From contig JABSRN010000003.1 of the NCBI GenBank assembly GCA_013214025.1, forward strand, positions 1 through 64,000: a stretch of DNA of 64,000 nucleotides. Direction: 5' to 3'. Source of the stretch: Polyangiaceae bacterium (lineage in GTDB: Bacteria; Myxococcota_A; Polyangia; Polyangiales; Polyangiaceae). Within the stretch, counting starts at the first letter, position 1; the number at the start of each line of letters is the position of its first letter. A model generated the notes under the pieces. That model was not told the origin of the DNA, ran no database searches, and saw nothing but the letters and a program-made list of their open reading frames with translations. Position numbers and translations under genes: made by a program. Positions 38,957 to 60,885 of the stretch are shown in pieces.

Positions 38957-39257
38957 GGCGAGGGGCAGCCTAGCGCTCCGCAGCTGTTACTGCGAGTTTC
39001 CGCCACGGCAATCACGACAGCGTCCGGGCATGTTCAGACGGGGGCGGGTCCCAGAGGCCGGCTTGGCAAGGGACCTCAGCTTCAACAAGCGGAATCCGCC
39101 AATGTTTCGAGAACTAGGGGCTTTTTCAGGCTGTGGAGGGAGGCATCGGCAACGGATAGAGGCTGAGGGCAAGAGGCGGCTGCTGTGACGACTCCTACAC
39201 TCCACGGCTCGGTCGATCCCGCTCGCCCTCCCGGCGAAGAGTGGCTATCCCGCGGTG

Positions 39258-40226
39258 ATGGGTTCGGTACGGGAATTTATCAGGCACAACTATCGGCACT
39301 TCAACGCGGCCAGTCTGATCGACGCCGCCGAGGGCTGGGAAAAACACCTGGCTGACGGGGGCAAGATGTTCCTGACCATGGGAGGTGCCATGAGTACCGC
39401 CGAGCTGGGGATTTGCGTCGCCGAATTGATCCGCCAAGACAAAGTGCACGGCCTGTGTGTGACCGGCGCCAACATTGAAGAGGACTTCTTCAACTTGGTC
39501 GCACACGATCACTACGTGCGTGTTCCTCATTACCGCGAACTGAGCAAGCAGGACGAGCAGGCCCTACTGGATCAGCACCTGAACCGAGTCACGGATACGT
39601 GCATTCCGGAAGAGGCAGCCATGCGCAAGATCGAGGGCAAGATGCTGCAGGTCTGGCAAGACGCGGAAGCGAAGGGCGAGCGTCATCTTCCTTACGAGTA
39701 CTTTTATCAGGTGGCCCGATCTGGCGTGCTTGAGAGCGAGTATCAGATCGATCCCAAAGATTCCTGGCTATTGGCCGCGGCCGCTAAGGACCTCCCTGTT
39801 TTCACTCCCGGCTGGGAAGACTCCACCCTGGGGAACATGTTTGTGGCGTGCAACCTCACCGGCAGCTTGCAGAGTTTGCTGACCGTCAAGAGCGGGGTCG
39901 AACAGATGGCGGCGTTGATCGAGTGGTATCGGGAGACGACAAAGGCCGCGTCCCTCGGTTTCTTTCAGATCGGCGGCGGCATCGCAGGCGACTTTCCTAT
40001 CTGCGTGGTGCCCTTGCTGGAGCAGGACCTAAGGGAAGACGTGCGCAAGTGGGGATACTTCTGCCAGATCTCGGATTCGACGACCTCACTCGGATCCTAC
40101 AGTGGAGCAGTTCCGAACGAGAAGATCACCTGGGGCAAGATCGATATCGATACGCCCAGCTACGTGATCGAGTCGGATGCCACCATCGTGTTCCCGCTCA
40201 TCGCAGCTCATGTACTGAATCAGTAG
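39258..40226 (+). CDS. Deoxyhypusine-synthase-like protein
   Basis: 322 residues, related over its full length to deoxyhypusine synthase, which in eukaryotes and archaea transfers an aminobutyl group from spermidine with NAD. Seen: MFLTMGGAMSTAELGICVAE, LCVTGANIEEDFFN, PVFTPGWEDSTLGNMFV, the glycine loop FFQIGGGIAGDFPICVVPLL, and SLGSYSGAVPNEKITWGKID with ESDATIVFPLIAAHVL. In true DHS the glycine loop is followed by KHH with the catalytic Lys; here the equivalent residues are AGDF. Bacteria have no eIF5A, so the product is likely a polyamine or related compound; related bacterial proteins are thought to act in polyamine synthesis. ATG at 39258 (a GTG is directly before). Confidence 0.88.
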   Translation: MGSVREFIRHNYRHFNAASLIDAAEGWEKHLADGGKMFLTMGGAMSTAELGICVAELIRQDKVHGLCVTGANIEEDFFNLVAHDHYVRVPHYRELSKQDEQALLDQHLNRVTDTCIPEEAAMRKIEGKMLQVWQDAEAKGERHLPYEYFYQVARSGVLESEYQIDPKDSWLLAAAAKDLPVFTPGWEDSTLGNMFVACNLTGSLQSLLTVKSGVEQMAALIEWYRETTKAASLGFFQIGGGIAGDFPICVVPLLEQDLREDVRKWGYFCQISDSTTSLGSYSGAVPNEKITWGKIDIDTPSYVIESDATIVFPLIAAHVLNQ

Positions 40227-42648: not shown

Positions 42649-44793
42649 CTACTTCTTCGATGACTTCTTCGGCTGAGTCTTCTTGCTGGACGACTTCTTG
42701 CCGGTCTTCAGGGCTTTCTTCGAGCTCCGGCGCTTTTTGGAGCTCTTCTTCACCGACTTCTTGCGTCGCTTGAGCTTGCTTGCCTTTGTCTGCTTGCGCT
42801 TCTTCGACTCGGCTTTGGACTTCTTGCGCTTCTTCTTGCGCTTCTTCTTCTCCGGCGGAGGAATAATCAGCTTTTGCCCCGGGTGGATGGATCGCTTGGT
42901 GCTGATGCCGTTGGTCTTCGCGATGGCACGGGCCGTCGTGCCGTATTTTCGGGCGATGCGAATCAGGTTGTCGCCACGCTTCACCGTATGGATCCGTGGG
43001 TGCGGTTTTTGCCCGCGGGCGCCAATGGGAATGATCAGCTTTTGCCCGGGATAGATGGGGCGCTTCGGATTGATGCCGTTCTTGCCTGCGATGGCGGCAA
43101 CGGTCGAACCATATCGCTTGGCGATGCGAATGAGGTTCCCGCCCTTGCGAACGATGTGCACCTGACTGAGGAAGGCGGGCGGCGGATCCACGGTCCAGCC
43201 CTCGGGGTACACTTCCACCACCGAACGCAGCTCCGGTTGCAGGTAAATGTACGCTGCCGCTCGCACTTGTTCCTGGGTCACCGTGTCGATGGCTGCCAGT
43301 CGTTCGTTGAGGCGTCGCGCGTCGCCGTAGAATATTTCGTATTCGCCGAGCAGGGTCGCCCGCGCCTCATTGCTCTCCATTTCTTCGAGCAGCTGAAGCC
43401 GGAGACGCGCTTTGGCTTTGGCTAGTTCGGCGTCGCTGGGGCCCATGAGGCGCGCTCGCTTGAGTTCGCCGGCTAGAAAGAATTGCGCCTTGTCGATACT
43501 GGACAGCGGCGCAATCTCGATTTGGATCACGAAGGCGTCCGGGCCCCGATGGTCTTCGGTCCACGCCGACACGTTGAGTGCCTTCGCCTTGGCGCGCACG
43601 AGGGACTGAAACAGCCGTGAGCTTTCGCCGTCGCCGAGAATAGCGGCCTGAAGTTGCAGCGCCGTATGGTGTTTTTTTCCGGACGGCGGGATGCGCCACC
43701 CGTAGTAAACACCGGGGGCCTTGGTGTTGTAGTCCTCAATGACACTGAGCCGCTCGCTGCTCTGGGGAATGAGTAGCGGAGGCGAGTACTTCGGTCGCGC
43801 CCCTGGGACCGCATCGTCGAAATAGTCCGTGACGATGGCGAGGGTTGTCGCAGGATCAAAATCGCCGGCGATGCTGAGCACGGCGTTGTTGGGCGTGTAG
43901 TAGGCCCGATGAAACTCTTTGACCCAGCTCACTTTTGCTGTGTCGAGATCTCCCATGGTGCCGATGGGCGTGTGTTCGTAGGGGTCGTAGCCTTGAAACA
44001 CGAGCTCCTGCAGTCGGAGGTAGCCAAATCCGAAGGCCTCGTTGCTGACGTCTTCCCGATACTCTTCGCTGACAACGGCGCGCTGGTTCTCGAACTTGGC
44101 GCGAGTCACCGCCAAGGACTTCATGCGCTCGGCCTCCAGCCAGAGTCCGAGGCGCAATTCGCTACTGGGCAGGGTGGAGTAGTAGTTCGTCAGATCGCTG
44201 CTGGTGGAGCCGTTGTCGTCGCCACCGCGTTGGGCGATTAACTTGGAGTGGTCGCCTTTGGGCAGGTTCAGGCTGCCCTGAAACATCATGTGTTCGAATA
44301 GATGAGCGAAACCCTTTTGCCCGGGCCCTTCATCGCGGGAGCCCACGTCGTAGGTTACGCAAACAGATACGGTGGGCGCTCGAGGATCCGGCGCCATGAC
44401 CACTCGCAAGCCGTTACGAAGTTTGGCACGGTGGATCTCCAGCAATCCCTTCGACGGTGGCGGTAACTGGGGGGCAGCCGTCGTTTCTTTTGTTTCGCTC
44501 GTCTTCTGAACGGAGCTAGCCGTGGCGCCTGGTGACGCTACCTTGATGCGGCTGCCAGCAATGGGCCGGGCCGTGGGCGTAGCGATCTTGGGCGCTACGG
44601 ATGTGGGCTGTGCGGTCTTGCCCGCTGGTGGTAGCGCGACAGCGGGAGTTTTTCCCGGTTGAGCCACGGCTGTGGCCAACCGCACGGACGGCGATGCCAG
44701 TAGTAGGGCGAGCAACAGTCCGAGCAGGCGACGCGATTGGCGATACCGGGGGGAAGGGATCTGTACCCCAGTCACAGCTGCGCTCTCGCCCAT
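42649..44793 (-). CDS. M16 zinc protease fused to two LysM domains and a Lys-rich tail
   Basis: About 714 residues. Signal peptide (LLGLLLALLLASPSVRLATA), an Ala/Pro/Thr linker, then one M16 unit (about 125-560): the inverted zinc motif AHLFEHMMFQGS (HxxEH), the distal Glu in VVSEEYREDVSNEAF, and the M16 second subdomain (LSIAGDFDPATTLAIVTDYF, PGVYYGWRIPP). Two LysM repeats follow (VRKGGNLIRIAKRYGSTVAA; VKRGDNLIRIARKYGTTARA), each ending in PGQKLIIP; these bind peptidoglycan. The last about 75 residues are almost all Lys, Arg and Ser. M16 enzymes often work as pairs; no second M16 gene is adjacent. ATG at 44793 is used because it precedes the signal peptide. Confidence 0.85.
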   Translation of the reverse strand: MGESAAVTGVQIPSPRYRQSRRLLGLLLALLLASPSVRLATAVAQPGKTPAVALPPAGKTAQPTSVAPKIATPTARPIAGSRIKVASPGATASSVQKTSETKETTAAPQLPPPSKGLLEIHRAKLRNGLRVVMAPDPRAPTVSVCVTYDVGSRDEGPGQKGFAHLFEHMMFQGSLNLPKGDHSKLIAQRGGDDNGSTSSDLTNYYSTLPSSELRLGLWLEAERMKSLAVTRAKFENQRAVVSEEYREDVSNEAFGFGYLRLQELVFQGYDPYEHTPIGTMGDLDTAKVSWVKEFHRAYYTPNNAVLSIAGDFDPATTLAIVTDYFDDAVPGARPKYSPPLLIPQSSERLSVIEDYNTKAPGVYYGWRIPPSGKKHHTALQLQAAILGDGESSRLFQSLVRAKAKALNVSAWTEDHRGPDAFVIQIEIAPLSSIDKAQFFLAGELKRARLMGPSDAELAKAKARLRLQLLEEMESNEARATLLGEYEIFYGDARRLNERLAAIDTVTQEQVRAAAYIYLQPELRSVVEVYPEGWTVDPPPAFLSQVHIVRKGGNLIRIAKRYGSTVAAIAGKNGINPKRPIYPGQKLIIPIGARGQKPHPRIHTVKRGDNLIRIARKYGTTARAIAKTNGISTKRSIHPGQKLIIPPPEKKKRKKKRKKSKAESKKRKQTKASKLKRRKKSVKKSSKKRRSSKKALKTGKKSSSKKTQPKKSSKK

Positions 44794-45009
44794 GGTTCCC
44801 GGCTTATCACGATGTCGAGGGAGGGCCGAAATGCGGGTGGCATTGAGTTCGTTTTCCAATTCTCCCCCGGGAAAACGCGCTAAATGCGCCAATTAGTCCC
44901 CAGTGTACGCGGGGCGCCGAGGATTCGACGGAGGCTTGCCCGTCGCGGCTTTAGCCGGCCCCGGAGCGCATTGTATGCGGGCGGCTCTCGCGTTCTACTC
45001 GCTGTCGCC

Positions 45010-45763: not shown

Positions 45764-46960
45764 TCAGTCGGTGGTGGCTACGAAGCCGATGGTGGAGGCC
45801 ATGCAGCTGGTGCTGGGGTCGCGGTCACTGTCGAGCAGGCCCAAGTAGTCTTCGCTGGTCTGCCAGAAGCGGCCGTCCAAGCGCATGATGAGCTTGTCAG
45901 AGCTTTCAACTGGCTCGAAGTCCAAGGTGATGGTTTCGGTGTTCAATGTCAGAGCGTCATCTGCGTTGGGGTCGAAGTTGAGGTGCTCAAAGCGACCGGC
46001 GACGCCGAAGCTGTCGCTAATTGCGTAGCTGAGCGCCAAACTGACGCCGTAGGCACTGGCGTCGTCACCATTGGCTGCGCCCTCTTTGTCCGTCACGTGG
46101 TCGCCGTTGAAGATGATGGTGAGATCGTCCAAGCTGGCAATAGCTACGACGTCGAAGAACTGGTCGAAGCCACTTCCGTTGTCGACGCCGTTCATGGCCA
46201 TCCTGCCTTCGGCGTAAACTTCGATGATGTCGTTCGGGGTGATAGCTGCCAGCAACGCGATGGAGGGCGAATCGCCGTTGGCGTCATCCACCTCGGTGGC
46301 ATTGGTGGTGCCGTTGACGATCATCTAGGTGAGACCGAACTCGTCAACAATCTCATAGCTGGCACGCGGACCCGTGTACCAGAAGGGCTGCAGGGAGTAG
46401 TACAACGCGCCGCGGGTGTAGTTCAGGTTCTGCCAGCTCTCGGCGACTTCAGCACCGAAGATAGTGCCAAACAGGCCGATGTCCATGCTGAACTCGTCGG
46501 TGGGGCTCCAAGTGACAAAACCCTGGGTCAGGTTGTCGATGCCGAAGCCGGCCATGTCGCCCGCGTAGTACTCGGGAACGGAAGGACCGAAGCGAAAGCT
46601 GCCGGTGGCGCCGACTTCGCCGCCGGCAAAGGCGGTATCGATGCCGAGGAACGAGAGAGCAAAGCCATTCTCGTTCTGCAACTCGTCGCCGCCGCCTGTG
46701 CCAGGAATAGGCGAGTCGGTGGTCGCATCAATTTCCTCGGCGGAGGTGCCAATGCCGGCGGAAACGTAGGCGCGCCAGCCCGGGGCGGGAGTTCCTTGCT
46801 TTCCACTGTGCACGGTGTCGTCGGCATCAGCGAACATCGGGAAGCTCAGGCCGTTGTCGCTATCCTCTTCGGTGGCTTCCTCGGCGGGCGCGGCCGGTGC
46901 TGCGGGAGCCTCTTTGGTGACCGGCCAGCCTATTGCTATACCGGGACTTCCGGAAACGTG
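45764..46960 (-). pseudogene. BBP2-type outer-membrane porin broken by an in-frame stop
   Basis: Two open parts lie in the same frame. The first (46837 to 46328) holds FADADDTVHSGKQGTPAPGW, YVSAGIGTSAEE, FGTIFGAEVAESWQNLNYTR and GALYYSLQPFWYTGPRASYE, ending FGLT and then TAG (46325-46327). The second begins MIVNGTTNATEVDDANGDSP and ends IMRLDGRFWQTSEDYLGLLD ... STIGFVATTD, a beta-strand ending. The usual BBP2 text runs F.LT.MVVNG.., so only the stop codon splits it. Upstream, WPVTKEAPAAPAAPAEEATE continues the frame but I find no signal peptide or start, so the 5' end is damaged too. Such porins move small solutes across the outer membrane. Confidence 0.75.
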
Positions 46961-48768: not shown

Positions 48769-49476
48769 GTGCTTGACTCACGGGCGCAGCTAAGGGACCA
48801 AAAGGCCTTGCCTGCTAGCTATTTCGACGTCGACGGCACGCTCATTTCGAGCAACGTGTTGCACCCGGCCGCGTATTATTTGTCTCATCAGCAGACCCCG
48901 TTGCAGGTGGCTCTGCGCTTTGGCAAAACCTTGGCGAACGCACCGCGCATGGCCATGGCAGAATTGGCGGATCGCCGCACGTTCAACGAACTGTTGTTCT
49001 CGTCTTACGGTGGCATGAGCTCGGACCGATTGGAGTTGCTCGCGGACGACGCCTTCAACACCGCGATGAAGCCCTATCTCTATCCCAAGGCCAAGGACTT
49101 GATCAAAACGAGTCGGGCTGCCGGTCACGAGATTGTGCTCATAAGCGGCACTTTGGATTTTATGCTCGATCGCTTGGCGGACTACTTCGGTGGCGCCAGC
49201 ATCATCTGCAACCGACTCGAGATCAAAGACGGTTACGCCACGGGCAAGCTACTGAAACCTGTAGTGGCCGGCCCCGAAAAGGCGCGTCTCATTCGTGAAC
49301 ATGCGCGGATCAACAACCACGACCTCAACGATTGTTTCGCCTTCAGCGATAGTTACTCCGACGTCCCGATGCTGAGCGTCGTCGGACATCCCGCGGCGGT
49401 AAATCCCGATCGCCGTCTTTCACTCTTGGCCAAAGCCTATAGCTGGCCGATGTTCGATCTTGGTGTGAATACATGA
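48769..49476 (+). CDS. HAD-IB family phosphatase, first gene of the elb-like operon
   Basis: About 235 residues. HAD motifs are complete: YFDVDGTLISSNV (nucleophile Asp and acid/base Asp), LISGTLD (motif II), the Lys region GPEKARLIREHA, and DSYSDVPML (motif IV). The SerB-like cap lies between. HAD-IB enzymes of this kind often dephosphorylate lipid or small phosphate esters. The start is uncertain: GTG at 48769 is used, though TTG at 48808 (LPASYFDVDG) would sit closer to motif I. The stop overlaps the next ATG (ATGA). It corresponds by content to the small phosphatase gene I recall next to elbD in Myxococcus. Confidence 0.85.
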   Translation: MLDSRAQLRDQKALPASYFDVDGTLISSNVLHPAAYYLSHQQTPLQVALRFGKTLANAPRMAMAELADRRTFNELLFSSYGGMSSDRLELLADDAFNTAMKPYLYPKAKDLIKTSRAAGHEIVLISGTLDFMLDRLADYFGGASIICNRLEIKDGYATGKLLKPVVAGPEKARLIREHARINNHDLNDCFAFSDSYSDVPMLSVVGHPAAVNPDRRLSLLAKAYSWPMFDLGVNT

Positions 49477-51104
49477 GTCATCCCTGCGTAGTAACTTTGG
49501 ACGCGGACAGTGCCCCGCGCGTAATTTTTGCCGGCGACCGTTTGGTCGAGGTCAACATGCCGCCGGGTACGCGCTGCATTTACCCGAAACCTCCGCTTGA
49601 GCCCTTGGCTGACGTGGACGCCGCGATTCGGTACGCGATCAACCACCCCGAGGGCGGCGACCCGTTGTTCGCCAAGCTCAAGCCGGGCATGAAGTTGACC
49701 ATAGCCGTCGACGATATCTCGTTGCCGCTGCCGCCCATGAAGCGCCCGGACATCCGCGAGCGGGTTCTGAACATCGTGCTGGCCATGTGTGCGGACTACG
49801 GCGTTGACGACATCGAGATCATCATTGCCCTCGGTGTGCACCGGCGTCTGCGCGGCCCAGAGATCAAACACATCGTTGGCCCCAAGGTGTTCAAGGAATA
49901 CTATCCAGACCGCCTCTACAACCATGACGCCGAAGACCACGACAACCTCGTCGTGCTGGGCGAAACAGAGCTAGGCGAAGTCGTCGAGGTCAACAAACGA
50001 GCGGCCGAGAGCGATCTACTGCTCTACGTGAACCTCAACTTCGTGCCCATGGACGGCGGCCACAAGTCGGTCATCTGCGGCCTCGTCAGCTACCGGAGCC
50101 TGAGGGCGCACCACAACCCGAAGACCATGCGTCAGTGTCACAGCTACATGGACCCGGCAGCCTCCGAGTTGGCAAACTCGGTGGAACGCATGGGCAAGGT
50201 CGCGAACCAGAAGCTCAATCTGTTCACTATCGAGACCACCATCAACAACCGCATGTTTCCGGACGCGCTGAGCTTCCTGCACAAGAACGAAGACGATCTC
50301 GACGGCAAAGAGCGTGCTCTGCTCAACGGCATCGTTCAGGCCACAGCGATTTTGCCCCAGGCGGCTCGCGAAAAAATCTTCGACGCTTCCCCGGCTCCCT
50401 TTGGCGTCACCGGCGTGTTTGCTGGCGAGACCGAAGCCGTGCACGCCAAGACCCTGGAGATGTGCTGGAAGCAGTACTGCGTTCCCGTCGAGGGTCAGGC
50501 GGACGTATTAGTCGCCGGCATCCCCTACGTCAGCCCCTACAACGTTCACGCCTTCCTGAACCCGCTGCTCGTGCAGGTGATGGCCCAGGGTTATCTGTTC
50601 AACATGTATCGAGGTCATCCCATCCTGAAAAAGGGCGGGACGATGATCATCACCCATCCCTGTACGGATCGCTTCGATCACGATCAGCACGCGCCCTACA
50701 TCGATTTTGTTCACCGGCTGTTGCCCGAGACCAGGGACGCCATGGAGCTGCACAAACGCTACGAAGACGAGTACGCCAAGGACCCGGCGCTCATTCAGAT
50801 GTTCCGCACGGGCCACGCCTACCACCCGAGTCACCCATTTTTTATGTGGTACTGGGGCGAAGCCGGCCGTCAGCACATCGGTCGCGTGATCGTGGTGGGT
50901 GCGGACAACGAATACATCCCCAAGTTGCTCGGCTGGGAAACCGCTGCCACCATGGAAGACGCTCTTTACATGGCCCGCGGCGAAGAGGCGCGTAAGCTCG
51001 ACATTACCTTGCTGCACGCGCCTCCCATCGTCATGGCTGACGTCACGATCCCGGAGGCTGCGTCCGAGTCAGCCGGGTCCGAGGGAGCTGAGGCGGAGTC
51101 TTGA
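49473..51104 (+). CDS. LarA/DUF2088-like protein in the elb-like operon
   Basis: 543 residues, longer than lactate racemase LarA (about 420). The N-terminal LarA-type domain shows PGMKLTIAVDDISLPLPPMK then RPDIRERVLNIVLAMCADYG and IIIALGVHRRLRGPEIKHIV, which parallels the RPTP......LL..L...G......I..A.G.HR......E. region around the LarA His ligand. Further His-rich segments are HHNPKTMRQCHSYMDP, THPCTDRFDHDQHAPYIDFV and YHPSHPFFMWYWGEAG. LarA holds a nickel-pincer cofactor; whether this relative does cannot be told, and lar cofactor genes (larBCE) are not in the window. It is coupled on both sides (ATGA upstream, TTGA downstream), which ties it to ether-lipid formation. Confidence 0.8.
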   Translation: MSHPCVVTLDADSAPRVIFAGDRLVEVNMPPGTRCIYPKPPLEPLADVDAAIRYAINHPEGGDPLFAKLKPGMKLTIAVDDISLPLPPMKRPDIRERVLNIVLAMCADYGVDDIEIIIALGVHRRLRGPEIKHIVGPKVFKEYYPDRLYNHDAEDHDNLVVLGETELGEVVEVNKRAAESDLLLYVNLNFVPMDGGHKSVICGLVSYRSLRAHHNPKTMRQCHSYMDPAASELANSVERMGKVANQKLNLFTIETTINNRMFPDALSFLHKNEDDLDGKERALLNGIVQATAILPQAAREKIFDASPAPFGVTGVFAGETEAVHAKTLEMCWKQYCVPVEGQADVLVAGIPYVSPYNVHAFLNPLLVQVMAQGYLFNMYRGHPILKKGGTMIITHPCTDRFDHDQHAPYIDFVHRLLPETRDAMELHKRYEDEYAKDPALIQMFRTGHAYHPSHPFFMWYWGEAGRQHIGRVIVVGADNEYIPKLLGWETAATMEDALYMARGEEARKLDITLLHAPPIVMADVTIPEAASESAGSEGAEAES

Positions 51105-54100
51105 GCGAGAGCCCACCAAAGAGCGCCAACGGCGCGACCCCGCCTCTCGATCTGAAGGCCCAATTCGCGGGCAAGAAGATGGTTATCGTCGGTGGCACCG
51201 GATTCTTGGGCAAGGTGTTCTGGAGCATGATGCTCTACGAGTACCCGGAGGTGACCCGCCTTTACGTGCTGGTCCGACCCCGCAAGAACCAGACGCCCCA
51301 GCAGCGTTTCGCAGATGACATCATCCAGAGCGAGGCTTTCGAACCCCTGCGTCGTCAACACGGCGACAACTTCGACACGTTTATTGCCGACAAAGTCGTG
51401 CCCATCGGCGGCGATGTGGTGGAGCCCTTCTGTGGCTTTTCTTCTGAGCTTCGGGACGAACTTCGCGGCGACGTGGCGGTGGTCATCAACGCGTCGGGCG
51501 TCGTTGACTTCGAACCGCCACTAGATATCGCGCTTCAGGTGAATGCCTTCGGCGTAAAGAGCGTAGTCGAGCTAGCCAAAGATCTCGGAGACTGCCCGGT
51601 CCTCCATACCAGCACTTGTTTTGTCGCCGGCGCCCGTACGGGCCAAGTGGAAGAGCTCAACCCCAGCGAGCATCCCTTCCCGCGAGATGGCGAACTCGAG
51701 CGAGCGCATTGGGACGCCGACGGAGAGATTTCTGAGTGTCTCGACGTCATCGAACAAGCCCGCCACCGCGCGGGGGACGCATTTCGTCAGAGCAGTTTCC
51801 TCGACGAAGCCAAGCGCAATCTGATGGCCCGCGGCGAAAGCACGCGAGGTTCCATGTTGGAGTCTGAGATCGCGAAGGTTCGCCGGAAGTTCATCGAATC
51901 CGAGTTGGCGGAACGCGGTCGTGAGCGCGCCCAATTTTGGGGGTGGCCGAATACCTATACCTATACCAAGAGCATCGGCGAGCAGATCGTCGTGGGCTCA
52001 GGTTTGGATTACGCGATCGCGCGGCCCGCCATCGTTGAGTCCAGCGTTAAATACCCGTGTAAAGGCTGGAACGAGGGCATCAATACCTCCGCTCCGCTCA
52101 TCTACCTGATCCGTGAGGGCCAGCTTCAGATCCCCGGCAGCAAGATCAATCTCGACATCATTCCCTGCGACATGGTGGCTGGCGGTATGTTGCTTACCCT
52201 GGGCGAGTTGCTCGAGGGGCGCGCCAAACCCGTCTATCAATACGGCAGCAGCGACACGAACCCGGTGACCGTGGCTCGCATTGTAGAGCTCACAGGTTTG
52301 TACAAGCGCGAGCTCTGGCGCAAGACGGGTCGAGGCGGCCCTGCCTACGGCGCGTTTCAGACCAATTTCGAAACGTCAGTGCTGTCGGCGGATCAATTCG
52401 ACATCTACGGACCGTTGGCCATTTCCCGGGGCGCGTCCAAGCTGTCGAGCTGGGTCGGCGGGCTCGCCAAGGGCGCGCTCAAGCCGCTGTTGAAGCCGGC
52501 AGCTGACGGGCTGAAGAGTTTCGCTCATCAGCAGAATAACATCGGCACCATCCTGGCCCAGTACCTGCCTTTCACGGCGAAGTACTCCTACGTTTTTCAG
52601 TGCGACAACACCCACGCGGCCTACGCCCGATTGACGGACGAAGATCGCGAGAAGATCATCTGGGCACCCCAGGATCTCGATTGGCGAGACTGGATGCTGG
52701 ATGTACACATTCCCGGCCTTGAGAAATGGGTGTTCCCGAATCTCGCCGACAAGCTATCGAAGCCGAAACCGCCGCCGAAACGCTACGAGACCCTGCCCGC
52801 CATCTTGGACGAGATGGCCGAGCGTTACGAGTTGTCGGTTGCGCTCCAGCAGACCGAGCCCGACGGCCTCAGTCGCATCAGTTTTCGGCAATGGCACGAG
52901 CGCTCACTAGCGTGCGCCAAGCGGCTCCAGGAAGCCGGAGTGAACGAGGGCGATCGGGTCATGCTCAGCGGGGCGAATCAGCCCTCGTGGCCCATCGCCT
53001 TCTTCGGAATCATGCTCGCAGGCGCCACAACCGTGCCAGTAGACGCCGGTATCGAGGCGGATGTTGCCGTCAATTTGCTCAAAGCGTCAGGGGCTAAGGT
53101 CTTCATCGCAGACGGCGAGACCCAAGCGCGAGTCGGCGATAAAATCAGCGAGTTGGCCGACGTGAAGTTGTCGGACATGGTCGAGATCGCCCAGGGGGGA
53201 GCGCCCATCGCCCCGGTGGACGTGAGCTCAGCGGACGTCGCGGCGCTCATCTACACCAGCGGTACCACCGGATCGCCCAAGGGCGTGATGTTGTCGCACC
53301 ACAACCTCACCAGCTTGATAGCGGCCTTAACCCCGTTGTTCCCGCTGGGTCGAGGCGACCGTGTCATGAGCGTGCTGCCGCTACATCACACCTTCGAGCT
53401 GACCTGCGGCCTATTGCTCCCGCTCACCCGCGGCTCTCGCATCCTCTACATCGATGAGCTCACGGGCGAAAAGCTGTCCCACGGCCTCAAGGCGGGTCGC
53501 ATCACGGCGATGGTCGGCGTGCCCGCTCTGTGGGAAATGCTGGAGCGCAAGTTGCACGAGCGCATCGCGGACCGCGGCCCCATGGCGGTAAAGGTTTTCG
53601 ATATCGCGATCGATCTCAATCGGACACTCTCGCAGAGCACGGGTCTCGATGCCGGCAAATTACTGTTTGGCCCTGTTCACGCAGGACTCGGTGGTCACCT
53701 CAAGTTCCTCGTGAGCGGAGGCGCGGCTCTTTCGCCCGCGACCCACAAGACCTTTGCCGGAATGGGGCTACACCTCTCAGAAGGTTACGGTCTTACGGAG
53801 GCATCCCCCGTCATTACCGTCAGCAATCCGAAACCTGGGGAGCGTGCGGGTCACGTCGGAAAGCCCCTGGCGGGTACTGAGCTCAAAATTCACGATCCCG
53901 ATCCCAAGGGCATCGGCGAGGTCTACGCGCGGGGTCCGACCATCATGCTCGGTTATGCGGACGATGAAGAGGCGACCCGCGACGCTATCGACGACGACGG
54001 CTGGCTGCACACGGGGGATCTCGGCAAGCTCGACCGCAAGGGCAACCTCGTACTGGTCGGCAGAGCGAAGGACGTCGTGGTCACCTCGGCTGGCGAAAAT

Positions 54101-55774
54101 ATCTATCCCGACGACGTAGAAGAACGCCTCGGCAAGGTCGCTCATGTCGCCGAACTCACGCTACTCGGCATGGACGACGCCAACGGCGGCGAACGCCTAG
54201 CGCTCGTGGCTGTGCCGGAACCAGACAGTTCGCGGGATCGCGCTCAGATGCGCACTCTGGCGAAGACTTCCCTAAAAGAAGCCGTCAACGAGCTTCCCGC
54301 CATCATGCGCCCGGCGTCGACCACGTTGGTGGACATACCGCTGCCTCGTACGCCGACGCGCAAGGTCCAGCGCCGGGCTGTCAAAGACTTGTTGGCACGG
54401 CTCGAGCCTGTCGACATGGCCGCAAGCGGCGCGGTGGACTCGGACGCTGCGTCTAAGATGGTGCGAGGAGCAGCAGCCGCTATCGGTCGAAAAGATCCGG
54501 AATCCTTGGGGCCGGCGACGACTCTTCGGGGAGACCTAGGTTTTGACTCCCTCATGCTGCTGGAGCTGCTGGTGGCTTTGGAGCGCCGCGTGGGCTGCAC
54601 GCTGGACGCAGACCAGCTGAGTGACTGCGAGACTATCGGAGAAGCGGAGGCACTTGTTCGGCTGGCCGGAAGCCAAGCGGCAGGTTCCATCGGCGCGGTC
54701 TCCATCGACTCTGGGGAGGGAGGCGAGATGGACACCGTGGAGCTGCCCGAACCCCTGCGGCAGGCCGCGATGCAGTGGTTGGGCCAAGCGCAAAAGGGTT
54801 TCTACGACAGCGTGCTTCACACCCGCGTCATCGGTCGCGCACACATCCCACAGAATCGCAGCGTGATAGTCGCGGCGAATCACGCCAGTCACCTAGATCA
54901 GGGTCTCGTAAAATACGCCCTTGGCGACTACGGCCGGGACATGACGAGCATGGCTGCCCAGGATTATTTTTTCGAGGGCAACAAATGGCGCAAAGCCTAC
55001 TTCGAGAACTTCACGAACTTGGTGCCGGTTTCGCGCACGGGTTCGCTACGTCAGGGGCTCGAGCAAGCGGCAGAGCTGCTCGAGCGAGGCCAGGTAGTAT
55101 TGCTTTTCCCCGAGGGCACTCGATGCCTGGACGGCGAGTTGCAGGAATTCAAGCCCATCATCGGGCACCTGGCGCTAGAGCACGGGGTCGATGTCCTGCC
55201 GATCTATTTGGGCGGGACCTTCGCGGCCTTACCGAAAGGCGCCACGGCTCCGCGGGGTCGCAATGTCTCGGCGCGAATCGGTCCGCCGCTGGCCATCGTC
55301 GAGCTCCGGCGGCTGACGGACGGACAAAGCGCCTCGGAAGCAGCGCGCACAGTGGCGCGCATCACCGAACGCGCTGTTCGGGAGCTCAGCCATGGCCGGG
55401 TTCTGAATCTTGCTGACAAAACCGCCGAGGATTTCTTGTCGGCGGCGGAAGAGCCCATGACGGACTTGTTCTCTGAATTGGGTCGGCGCTTTGCCAAGGC
55501 CGAGGTCGAGGAACCGGTTAGCTTTTACTTCTCCCTGGGTGGTGAGGAACGCTGGACGATTCGCGTCGATAAAGACAATTGCCTGGTCGAGCAGGGCAAG
55601 ACCGTGGCTGATGCGGATTGTGTCTTGAAGACCTCCACTGGCATGTTCACGCGCATGGTGCGGGAGGGCTACGCCCCCAGTCCCAGCGAATTTATGGCCG
55701 GCACCATCAAGAGCAACAACGTCGCTCTATTGGTTGCCTTTCAGAAGATCTTTCAACTGGCGGATCGCGTTTAG
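51101..55774 (+). CDS. elbD: ElbD-like multidomain ether-lipid enzyme
   Basis: 1557 residues. Domain order: (1) NAD(P)-dependent fatty acyl reductase, about 25-420, with GGTGFLG at 31-37, INASGVVDFEPP and YTYTKSIGEQ (YxxxK); (2) AMP-forming acyl ligase, about 560-1100, with IYTSGTTGSPKGVML near 717, LSEGYGLTEASPVI and GRAKDVVVTSAGENIYP; (3) acyl carrier domain with LGFDSLMLLELL near 1147-1158 (phosphopantetheine Ser); (4) PlsC-type acyltransferase, about 1215-1410, with AANHASHLDQG near 1260 and LLFPEGTR near 1335; (5) SCP2-like sterol/lipid carrier domain to the end. This is the arrangement of M. xanthus ElbD, reported to make alkyl ether lipids. One chain could activate, reduce and transfer a fatty chain. 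It starts with TTG overlapping the previous stop. Confidence 0.85.
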   Translation: MSESPPKSANGATPPLDLKAQFAGKKMVIVGGTGFLGKVFWSMMLYEYPEVTRLYVLVRPRKNQTPQQRFADDIIQSEAFEPLRRQHGDNFDTFIADKVVPIGGDVVEPFCGFSSELRDELRGDVAVVINASGVVDFEPPLDIALQVNAFGVKSVVELAKDLGDCPVLHTSTCFVAGARTGQVEELNPSEHPFPRDGELERAHWDADGEISECLDVIEQARHRAGDAFRQSSFLDEAKRNLMARGESTRGSMLESEIAKVRRKFIESELAERGRERAQFWGWPNTYTYTKSIGEQIVVGSGLDYAIARPAIVESSVKYPCKGWNEGINTSAPLIYLIREGQLQIPGSKINLDIIPCDMVAGGMLLTLGELLEGRAKPVYQYGSSDTNPVTVARIVELTGLYKRELWRKTGRGGPAYGAFQTNFETSVLSADQFDIYGPLAISRGASKLSSWVGGLAKGALKPLLKPAADGLKSFAHQQNNIGTILAQYLPFTAKYSYVFQCDNTHAAYARLTDEDREKIIWAPQDLDWRDWMLDVHIPGLEKWVFPNLADKLSKPKPPPKRYETLPAILDEMAERYELSVALQQTEPDGLSRISFRQWHERSLACAKRLQEAGVNEGDRVMLSGANQPSWPIAFFGIMLAGATTVPVDAGIEADVAVNLLKASGAKVFIADGETQARVGDKISELADVKLSDMVEIAQGGAPIAPVDVSSADVAALIYTSGTTGSPKGVMLSHHNLTSLIAALTPLFPLGRGDRVMSVLPLHHTFELTCGLLLPLTRGSRILYIDELTGEKLSHGLKAGRITAMVGVPALWEMLERKLHERIADRGPMAVKVFDIAIDLNRTLSQSTGLDAGKLLFGPVHAGLGGHLKFLVSGGAALSPATHKTFAGMGLHLSEGYGLTEASPVITVSNPKPGERAGHVGKPLAGTELKIHDPDPKGIGEVYARGPTIMLGYADDEEATRDAIDDDGWLHTGDLGKLDRKGNLVLVGRAKDVVVTSAGENIYPDDVEERLGKVAHVAELTLLGMDDANGGERLALVAVPEPDSSRDRAQMRTLAKTSLKEAVNELPAIMRPASTTLVDIPLPRTPTRKVQRRAVKDLLARLEPVDMAASGAVDSDAASKMVRGAAAAIGRKDPESLGPATTLRGDLGFDSLMLLELLVALERRVGCTLDADQLSDCETIGEAEALVRLAGSQAAGSIGAVSIDSGEGGEMDTVELPEPLRQAAMQWLGQAQKGFYDSVLHTRVIGRAHIPQNRSVIVAANHASHLDQGLVKYALGDYGRDMTSMAAQDYFFEGNKWRKAYFENFTNLVPVSRTGSLRQGLEQAAELLERGQVVLLFPEGTRCLDGELQEFKPIIGHLALEHGVDVLPIYLGGTFAALPKGATAPRGRNVSARIGPPLAIVELRRLTDGQSASEAARTVARITERAVRELSHGRVLNLADKTAEDFLSAAEEPMTDLFSELGRRFAKAEVEEPVSFYFSLGGEERWTIRVDKDNCLVEQGKTVADADCVLKTSTGMFTRMVREGYAPSPSEFMAGTIKSNNVALLVAFQKIFQLADRV

Positions 55775-55799
55775 CGCCGCCTAGGAAACCTTGAGTCGT

Positions 55800-56822
55800 A
55801 TGAAGTTCTGGATCGGAGGTGCCACAGGGTTCTTGGGTAGCCATTTAGTGGCTGTGCTCAAAGAAGCCGGTCATGAAATGGTCCTGGCGTCGCTTTCCGG
55901 TGGGGAGGTGCACGGCCTGCCGGGTTCCAAGGTCAATATTCTGTCCCCAGGAGAGGTCGCGCGTAGTGCTCGGGGTTGTGACGGAGCCTTCTTCGTTGCT
56001 GGCAAGGTGAGCCGTGACGTCGCCGATGCCGATCTGATGCATAGAATTCACGTGCTCGGTACGCGGCATGCGCTCGCCGAGCTCAAAGCGGAGAAAATCC
56101 CCCGCGTTGTCTATCTCAGCACGAGCGGAACCATCGCCGTGGGCACGGATCCGAAGCGTGCCTACGATGAGCAGGCGCCGACCCCGACCGAATTGGTTGC
56201 GCGCTGGCCCTACTACCGCACGAAGCTCTACGCCGAGCGCGAAGCCAAGTTGCTGAACGAGCCTGGCGTGTTCGACGTGATCACCGTCAATCCTTCGTTG
56301 CTGCTCGGTCCAGGCGATTTGCGAGAGTCCTCGACGGCGGACATTCGCCGTTTCTTGGCAAGCGAGATCCCCGCGACGCCGGCCGGGGGCATCAGTTTCG
56401 TGGACGTGCGCGATGTCGCTAAAACTCTGCTACTCGCCTTCGAGAAGGGCGAGGCGGGAGAGCGATATTTGCTTTCCGCGAAGAACGTCACTTGCGTTGC
56501 CTTCTTCGAATTGTTGGAGCGACTGAGCGGAGTGCCCGCCCCCAGGCTGAAGATGCCGAGCCATCGGGGATTGGCCATCGGCGCCAACAAGCTATTCAAC
56601 AAGGCGTTGCGCACGTTCGGCGGCGAGCCCAGTGTCGACGAAGCCAGCGTCGAGATGTCGCAGTACTTTTGGTACTGCGACTCGGGGCTCGCCATCAAAG
56701 AGTTGGGCTTCTCCCCCAGGGATCCGAGCGTGACTCTGCGCGATACCATCGCCGATATGGAAGACCGCGAAGTAGTGTTCCCCCGGGGTGCCGTCGTTCA
56801 TGACAGCGCCGGCCGCAGCTGA
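55800..56822 (+). CDS. NAD-dependent epimerase/reductase, last gene of the elb-like operon
   Basis: About 340 residues of the extended short-chain dehydrogenase type. NAD motif FWIGGATGFLGSHLVAVL at the N-terminus, YLSTSGTIAVGTD, the catalytic YYRTK (YxxxK) in WPYYRTKLYAEREAKLL, and VITVNPSLLLGPGD. It resembles dihydroflavonol-4-reductase/3-beta-HSD relatives that reduce or oxidise lipid-like carbonyls. It starts 25 bases after elbD (ATG at 55800; TTG at 55791 possible) and probably completes the operon, as a reductase gene also follows elbD in Myxococcus as far as I recall. Confidence 0.85.
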   Translation: MKFWIGGATGFLGSHLVAVLKEAGHEMVLASLSGGEVHGLPGSKVNILSPGEVARSARGCDGAFFVAGKVSRDVADADLMHRIHVLGTRHALAELKAEKIPRVVYLSTSGTIAVGTDPKRAYDEQAPTPTELVARWPYYRTKLYAEREAKLLNEPGVFDVITVNPSLLLGPGDLRESSTADIRRFLASEIPATPAGGISFVDVRDVAKTLLLAFEKGEAGERYLLSAKNVTCVAFFELLERLSGVPAPRLKMPSHRGLAIGANKLFNKALRTFGGEPSVDEASVEMSQYFWYCDSGLAIKELGFSPRDPSVTLRDTIADMEDREVVFPRGAVVHDSAGRS

Positions 56823-59766: not shown

Positions 59767-60885
59767 GTGGATCCTGTGACGCGCGCTAAGAAGGTAGCCC
59801 CGGAGCTGACGCTCCAGCTTGAAGCGATGGCGATTCGTGCCATGGGCGGATACTACGACGATCTCAATGGCACTTTCTTCGGAGGCGCGCTGCGGCGACC
59901 GGTGCTCGGGGTATCGGAGACTCTGAACCGCCTCGGGCAGTGGACTGTGGAGACTCGAAGTCTGCACATCTCTCGGGAGTTGCTGATACGCGGTGATTGG
60001 GGCGCGGTCGTGGATACCTTCAAACACGAGATGGCCCATCAATATGTGCACGAGGTTTTAGGGATCCTGGATCAGAGCGCTCACGGCCCGGCCTTTACCA
60101 GGACTTGCAGCGAGCGTGGCATCGATTCCCGCGCGACCGTGGAATCTCGCACGGGTAGCGCCACCACGCCGGCTTGCAACTCACCTGGGGATGTGCATCC
60201 AAATCGAGCCGTAGAAAAAGTGGCGAAGTTGTTGGCTCTTGCGGAGAGCGCTAACGAAAATGAGGCCCGGGCTGCGATGAATGCCGCGCAGCGTCTAATG
60301 CTTCGTTTCAACATTGATGACATCGATAAGCCCGAGCGGCGGCAGTCCTATCGACACCTTGGACGGGCCACGGGACGCGTGAGCGAAAGCGAGCGCGTAT
60401 TAGCCCAGATTCTGAACGAACATTTTTTCGTCTCCACTATTTGGGTGAGCGTGTGGAGAGTGCTTGAGGGCAAACGCGGCAGTGTGCTCGAAGCCTGCGG
60501 CACGACCGAGAACCTTGAGTTAGCTGAATATGTTCACGATTTTCTGACTCGAACGGCGGGTCGACTGTGGACTGAGCATAAACAAGCGAATGGAATCCAA
60601 CGGGATCGGGATCGCCGAGCGTTCCTCGCGGGTGTGATGGCGGGCTTTCGTCGAACACTCCGCTCTCAGGCGAAAGTGCACAGCGAGCAAGGAATGGTTT
60701 GGATGGGCGATCCCGAAGTGGCGGCGTTTTTGAAGCGCCGTCACCCCTATACCCGGACAACACGCCATAAAAGCAGCAGTCGCAGTGACGCGCACGCAGA
60801 CGGCTGCGCTGCGGGATCGAAAATTGTCCTGCGCCGGGGCGTGAAGGGCACGAGTTCCGGCGGCGTCAAACAGTTGACGCGATAG
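59767..60885 (+). CDS. SprT-like metalloprotease fold plus DUF2786
   Basis: 372 residues in two parts. Residues about 15-120 form a SprT-like domain with the zinc motif FKHEMAHQYVHE (HExxH) and a further His in DQSAHGPAFTRTC. Residues about 145-340 are DUF2786-like: VEKVAKLLALAESANENEAR then AAMNAAQRLMLRFNIDDID. The two are found together in bacterial proteins of unknown role. The last 45 residues are basic and Ser-rich. SprT/Spartan proteases cut DNA-protein crosslinks in eukaryotes; a similar role here is only a guess. It starts with GTG at 59767 (another GTG at 59776) divergent from the ABC genes. Confidence 0.85.
   Translation: MDPVTRAKKVAPELTLQLEAMAIRAMGGYYDDLNGTFFGGALRRPVLGVSETLNRLGQWTVETRSLHISRELLIRGDWGAVVDTFKHEMAHQYVHEVLGILDQSAHGPAFTRTCSERGIDSRATVESRTGSATTPACNSPGDVHPNRAVEKVAKLLALAESANENEARAAMNAAQRLMLRFNIDDIDKPERRQSYRHLGRATGRVSESERVLAQILNEHFFVSTIWVSVWRVLEGKRGSVLEACGTTENLELAEYVHDFLTRTAGRLWTEHKQANGIQRDRDRRAFLAGVMAGFRRTLRSQAKVHSEQGMVWMGDPEVAAFLKRRHPYTRTTRHKSSSRSDAHADGCAAGSKIVLRRGVKGTSSGGVKQLTR

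Follow-up and report, generated by a model that had tools for sequence, protein, structure and literature searches.

Organization of the locus

A four-gene locus of a Polyangiaceae bacterium, located at positions 48769-56822 of the 64,000-nucleotide stretch of DNA analyzed here (the window; contig JABSRN010000003.1), was characterized computationally. Four open reading frames, all on the forward strand (48769-49476, 49473-51104, 51101-55774 and 55791-56822), were confirmed within it. They encode, in this order, a HAD-IB phosphatase, a LarA homologue (LarAH), a 1557-residue protein composed of fatty acyl reductase (FAR), acyl-adenylating ligase (ACS), carrier protein (ACP), PlsC-type acyltransferase and SCP2 domains, and a reductase of the SDR type. 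The domain architecture and the gene order fit the elbB-elbE genes described in Myxococcus xanthus (PMC9131029), as had been proposed in the first-pass annotation of the window, and the four products are referred to below as ElbB, ElbC, ElbD and ElbE. The LarA homologue, a bystander in that annotation, is an integral partner of ElbD, and the genes for making the nickel-pincer-nucleotide (NPN) cofactor are found in the same genome; of all parts of the locus, this homologue is perhaps the one of greatest interest. The locus itself belongs to the known elb kind; the novelty lies in what its "unknown" gene encodes and in how constantly that gene is present.

The first three genes overlap. The start codon of the LarAH gene and the stop codon of the phosphatase gene share 4 nt (ATGA; 49473..49476), and the TTG start codon of elbD shares 4 nt with the LarAH stop codon (TTGA; 51101..51104). 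Both overlaps indicate translational coupling, in agreement with the first-pass annotation. The SDR gene then begins 16 nt past elbD; with the in-frame ATG at 55800 as its start codon, the spacing would be 25 nt. The same four-gene set was found again in dozens of genomes, and its repeated occurrence is therefore far beyond chance.

The N-terminal part of ElbD (51101..55774) is a FAR domain (approximately residues 22-545; 51164..52735). The Pfam match in this region, to NAD_binding_4 (PF07993, 1.3e-46), spans residues 29-360, and the top match in the PDB is a fatty acyl-CoA reductase (7eoz, 1e-45). The FAR domain is followed by (i) an ACS domain (approximately residues 565-1097; 52793..54391) with an AMP-binding match (PF00501, 2e-78) at residues 571-952, (ii) a carrier protein of the PP-binding type (PF00550; residues 1128-1185; 54482..54655) with the phosphopantetheine serine Ser1150, and (iii) a PlsC-type acyltransferase (PF01553; residues 1241-1370; 54821..55210), whose predicted model matches PlsC of T. 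maritima (5kym, 5e-12). The carrier serine and the reductase motifs, to which the first-pass annotation had drawn attention, were found to be conserved across 55 family members: the FAR residues G31-G37, Y286 and K290 (GxTGFxG and YxxxK) are retained, as are the AMP-binding motif, Ser1150, and the NHxSHLD and FPEGTR motifs.

The C-terminal SCP2 lipid-carrier domain (approximately residues 1453-1551; 55457..55753) was recognized through relatives and structure prediction. By itself, this end of the window protein scores under the Pfam cut-off, while PF02036 was matched in 16 of 18 relatives (best 3e-4), and the C-terminal model (pLDDT 83) matches many SCP2 structures with a Foldseek probability of 1.00. 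All five of the domains previously ascribed to the protein were thus recovered. SCP2 is missing from six of the 55 aligned ElbD members and from the acidobacterial copies, and it therefore appears to be optional.

The ElbB-like phosphatase (235 aa; 48769..49476) contains the FDVDGTL motif and matches TIGR01490 with 137.7 bits (cut-off 98.3), as well as PF12710; its gene adjoins that of LarAH in nearly all relatives. ElbE (343 aa; 55791..56822) is an extended SDR (PF01370) of the HpnA/dihydroflavonol-reductase-like type, which scored 178.8 bits against TIGR03466, under the cut-off of that model. Its YxxxK motif (Y141/K145) is conserved among relatives. No elbA-like SDR gene was found upstream of the elbB-like gene, where a 415-nt gap is followed by an opposite-strand gene for a DNA_pol_A_exo1 protein (exonuclease). 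A promoter scan gave no signal above that of shuffled sequences.

The LarA homologue and its association with ElbD

ElbC (543 aa; 49473..51104) was assigned to the LarAH14/15/16 family (NF052592, 803.6 bits, cut-off 740). Residues D81, H123, K198 and H214 align with the ribose Asp, the catalytic His, the NPN-linking Lys and the nickel-binding His of LarA, and these four residues, like Y356, H451 and H454, do not vary among 50 ElbC sequences from two phyla. The second catalytic His (LarA H174) is absent from all 50 aligned sequences; the window protein has N187/L188/N189 there. An AF2 model of the protein (pLDDT 90) is closest to a holo single-His LarA (9q3k, Z 40.1). Judged from its sequence, ElbC is a LarA homologue of the NPN type with a predicted NPN-type active site.

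The distribution of the two proteins was examined across the phylum (377 genomes). LarAH was found in 113 genomes, ElbD in 113, and both in 110 (Fisher p ~1e-87, uncorrected for shared ancestry). Four of the six mismatches (G363, G391, G228 and G301) involve short contigs or contig ends, and in G391 a truncated ElbD follows LarAH at the end of the contig; of the other two, G374 is a fragment and G016 has a different LarAH. In the 59 nearest genomes, LarAH14-16 and ElbD occur in the same 29 and neither occurs in the remaining 30, with the LarAH gene of G017 being split over two contigs. Within the host's own family, 25 genomes carry both and 12 carry neither. In four complete or long-contig genomes (G031, G013, G018 and G366), the HAD-LarAH and ElbD-ElbE gene pairs are located hundreds of kilobases apart, and each pair stays intact even where the two are unlinked. 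Since the pairs co-occur despite lying far apart in several genomes, the link between LarAH and ElbD is more than operon hitch-hiking.

A scan of species genomes gave loci from 80 of 578 relatives (M. xanthus was not among the 80). The order HAD-LarAH-ElbD-ElbE is nearly constant in these loci where upstream room suffices, Acidobacteriota included, and 19 of the 19 ElbD genomes tested among them also carry LarAH. A search begun from LarAH identified it in 29 of 297 Acidobacteriota genomes. Nearly all acidobacterial LarAH genes with enough flanking sequence adjoin the phosphatase gene and either ElbD or a FAR-only form of it, the exceptions being contig ends or distant LarAHs such as that of G427 (L262). 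The HAD-LarAH-ElbD-ElbE cassette is present in Pyrinomonas methylaliphatogenes K22 (L225), a species in which ether and membrane-spanning lipids exceed 40% and glycerol ethers are made (PMC4644332).

Several variant cassettes were also observed. At three loci (L238, L239 and L248), a free-standing FAR is all that is left of ElbD, and it accompanies HAD, LarAH and ElbE. At two acidobacterial loci (L258 and L261), which contain ElbD and HAD, a zinc alcohol dehydrogenase gene stands between the HAD gene and that of a distant LarAH, and a gene of the YegS/diacylglycerol-kinase-like type is also present. Proteins in which HAD and FAR are fused were identified at L232:5494-7884, L224:7265-9700 and L227:9107-11665, with no LarAH within the fetched stretches; these fusion loci perhaps serve a related pathway without need for LarAH.

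The host assembly (5.77 Mb, 97% complete) was searched for cofactor genes and for other ether-lipid routes. LarB, LarC and LarE are all present, and ElbC is the sole Lar_N protein of the genome. No match to the CarF/PEDS1-type desaturase (PF10520), which is present in 95 of the 377 phylum members, was found in the host genome, and an alkyl rather than a vinyl ether is therefore expected. A plasmalogen product, and with it the "plasmalogen-like" wording of the first-pass annotation, was accordingly dropped. No ether synthase of the AGPS type was identified in the host genome either. Its only FAD-oxidase_C protein was rejected as a candidate, being glycolate-oxidase/LctD-like (5e-76, vs 2.9e-27 for AGPS).

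Proposed role of the locus and alternative explanations

These data are best explained by an elb-type operon that serves to make alkyl-ether glycerolipids and in which the LarA-like protein, as an integral partner of ElbD, would contribute a hydride-transfer step. We assign this explanation a probability of about 0.7. The building of ether lipids in these bacteria probably involves a nickel enzyme, and a role of ElbC in ether-lipid synthesis appears well supported by the genomic data. Judging from its domains and from work on M. xanthus, ElbD would charge its own carrier domain with a fatty acid by means of ACS and ACP. The FAR domain would then reduce the loaded fatty acid to an aldehyde or alcohol, PlsC would acylate the glycerol backbone, and SCP2 may hold the lipid or pass it on. 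ElbE is expected to act on a keto intermediate as a reductase, and the HAD enzyme to remove phosphate. As ElbC has no second catalytic His, it would probably perform an NPN-dependent hydride-transfer step in this pathway instead of an ordinary racemization.

Several points weigh against this explanation. Joint inheritance inflates the co-occurrence figures given above, which carry no tree correction. The anchor of the NPN phosphate, Arg75 in LarA and Lys in its single-His relatives, is replaced by a hydrophobic residue (L/M/V84) in ElbC. LarC occurs in at least 14 relatives in which no Lar_N protein was found (E 1e-5). The presence of LarB, LarC and LarE was considered as proof that ElbC uses NPN, and this argument is weakened by these relatives: since they keep LarC without LarA, the three genes alone prove no such use. 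The window ElbC is equated with that of M. xanthus by gene order. No elbC mutant was found reported in the literature, and the effects of elbB were ascribed to polarity (PMC9131029). Finally, Pontiella carries ElbD homologues yet showed no ether lipids (PMC11868695). As to the genomes that have LarC without Lar_N (G001, G007, G009, G014, G022, G023, G030, G033, G038 and others), they may contain another client for the cofactor or put LarC to another use.

In the main rival explanation, HAD and LarAH form a separate module for small molecules: a polar building block, either a hydroxy acid or a polyol, would be made or inverted by this module and then alkylated or acylated by ElbD and ElbE, which would form the ether bond themselves. 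The persistence of HAD-LarAH and ElbD-ElbE as pairs, even when far apart, favours such a division of labour, but the second catalytic His for racemization is absent from 50 of 50 aligned ElbC sequences. We regard this explanation as possible but doubtful.

The alkyl-ether explanation also has a more specific form, which we prefer although it is unlikely as a whole, namely that the NPN of ElbC itself forms the ether bond by hydride borrowing. In this scheme, the fatty aldehyde made by FAR and the C1 hydroxyl of glycerol 3-phosphate, or of a similar polyol phosphate, would form a hemiacetal within ElbC. NPN would take the C2 hydride and pass it to the carbon of the oxocarbenium ion, and this transfer would produce 1-O-alkyl-dihydroxyacetone (phosphate), after which ElbE would reduce the ketone, PlsC would acylate and HAD would dephosphorylate the product. 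The scheme is in keeping with the single catalytic His, with the presence of a phosphatase and a conserved dehydrogenase, and with the lack of an AGPS candidate in the host genome. One catalytic His would be enough for a one-way transfer. FAR, LarAH, HAD and a dehydrogenase are the core that is left where ElbD consists of FAR alone, and in L258 and L261 the zinc dehydrogenase stands between HAD and LarAH. Moreover, NPN was partly reduced in the single-His LarA of Streptococcus plurextorum (LarA_Sp), and a covalently bound 316-Da ligand of that protein was modelled as a phosphorylated aldose (PMC12611868). Against the scheme, it is purely inferential, no NPN enzyme that makes an ether is known (all characterized ones act on 2-hydroxy acids), and H306 of LarA_Sp corresponds to Pro355 in ElbC. 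Were hydride borrowing true, against the odds, AGPS and PlsA/Ger would be joined by a third chemical route to ether lipids, and the NPN cofactor would for the first time have a role other than that in racemases.

It is improbable that the LarA-like protein is a structural or regulatory relic in which NPN is no longer used. The replacement of the phosphate-anchoring Arg/Lys (L84) would agree with this possibility, and Desguin et al. left out groups 12, 13 and 16 on the view that these probably do not depend on NPN (PMC7583248). However, the seven residues listed above show no variation among the 50 sequences, which come from two phyla, and the host genome has LarB, LarC and LarE with no other Lar_N protein. 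Equally improbable, though no search aimed at a wax synthase was made, is an operon for fatty alcohols, waxes or another acylated product: although the FAR domain has its nearest PDB match in a fatty acyl-CoA reductase and ElbD has no known ether synthase domain, the gene order is that of M. xanthus elb, in which elbD loss removes most ether lipid, the same cassette occurs in the ether-lipid producer P. methylaliphatogenes, and glycerolipids are favoured because the pairing with the PlsC domain, the phosphatase and ElbE is constant, with diacylglycerol-kinase-like neighbours at some loci.

Four further genes were observed elsewhere in the window. A BBP2-type porin gene (45764-46837, reverse strand) contains one in-frame stop codon with an ATG directly after it; the two halves align with neighbouring sections of the profile, which may reflect a pseudogene, readthrough or an assembly error. 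An M16 peptidase with fused C-terminal LysM domains is encoded at 42649-44892 (reverse strand), and a protein of the deoxyhypusine synthase family, here in a bacterial genome, at 39255-40226 (forward strand). The gene at 59767-60885 (forward strand) combines SprT-like, DUF2786 and DUF7168 domains in one protein.

Comparison with known systems

The elb operon of M. xanthus comprises elbA (SDR), elbB (HAD), elbC ("unknown function"), elbD (FAR-ACS-ACP-AT) and elbE (SDR) (PMC9131029). In that organism, elbD is needed for most of the ether lipid and the fatty aldehyde depends on it, the ACS and ACP activities of ElbD work in vitro, and ElbA is reported to be dispensable for ether lipids (PMC9131029). 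The window reproduces the order elbB-elbC-elbD-elbE (M. xanthus ElbD, ABF88003.1), the match being based on gene order and domain description. It differs in having no elbA-like SDR upstream and no CarF found in the host genome, and in the C-terminal SCP2 of its ElbD, since none is listed for M. xanthus ElbD in the review (PMC9131029). The AGPS, PlsA/Ger and CarF routes lead to the same product class, and neither AGPS nor CarF was found in the host genome. M. xanthus itself has a minor AGPS route (MXAN_1676), and its elbC adjoins MXAN_1528.

The best structural matches of ElbC are the single-His LarA proteins of S. plurextorum (9q3k) and Blautia wexlerae (9q3j), with Z scores of 40.1 and 36.4, respectively. 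The second catalytic His has been lost in both these proteins and ElbC. However, the identity is only 21-24%, the genes of the single-His proteins are found in sugar-metabolism contexts, and neither Lys76 nor His306 of LarA_Sp is kept in ElbC (His306 being replaced by Pro355). No link between LarA or NPN and ether lipids was found in the open-access literature.

A parallel with a known lipid composition is the cassette of P. methylaliphatogenes K22 (acidobacterial subdivision 4), which has the same HAD-LarAH-ElbD-ElbE order as the window and lends further support to the elb assignment. The identities between the two are 43% for HAD, 55% for LarAH, 40% for ElbD and 41% for ElbE; K22 ElbD, at 1475 aa, has no SCP2, unlike that of the window.

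How the ether bond is formed in ElbD-type bacteria remains to be established (PMC9131029), a matter linked to the origin of the branched ether lipids used as climate proxies. The tight pairing of LarAH with ElbD joins this question with that of the function of LarA groups 14/15. The LarAH14/15/16 groups (NF052592), with which the window ElbC shares the NPN-site Lys, His and Asp and one catalytic His, had no known function in the literature found, and are here tied to ElbD.

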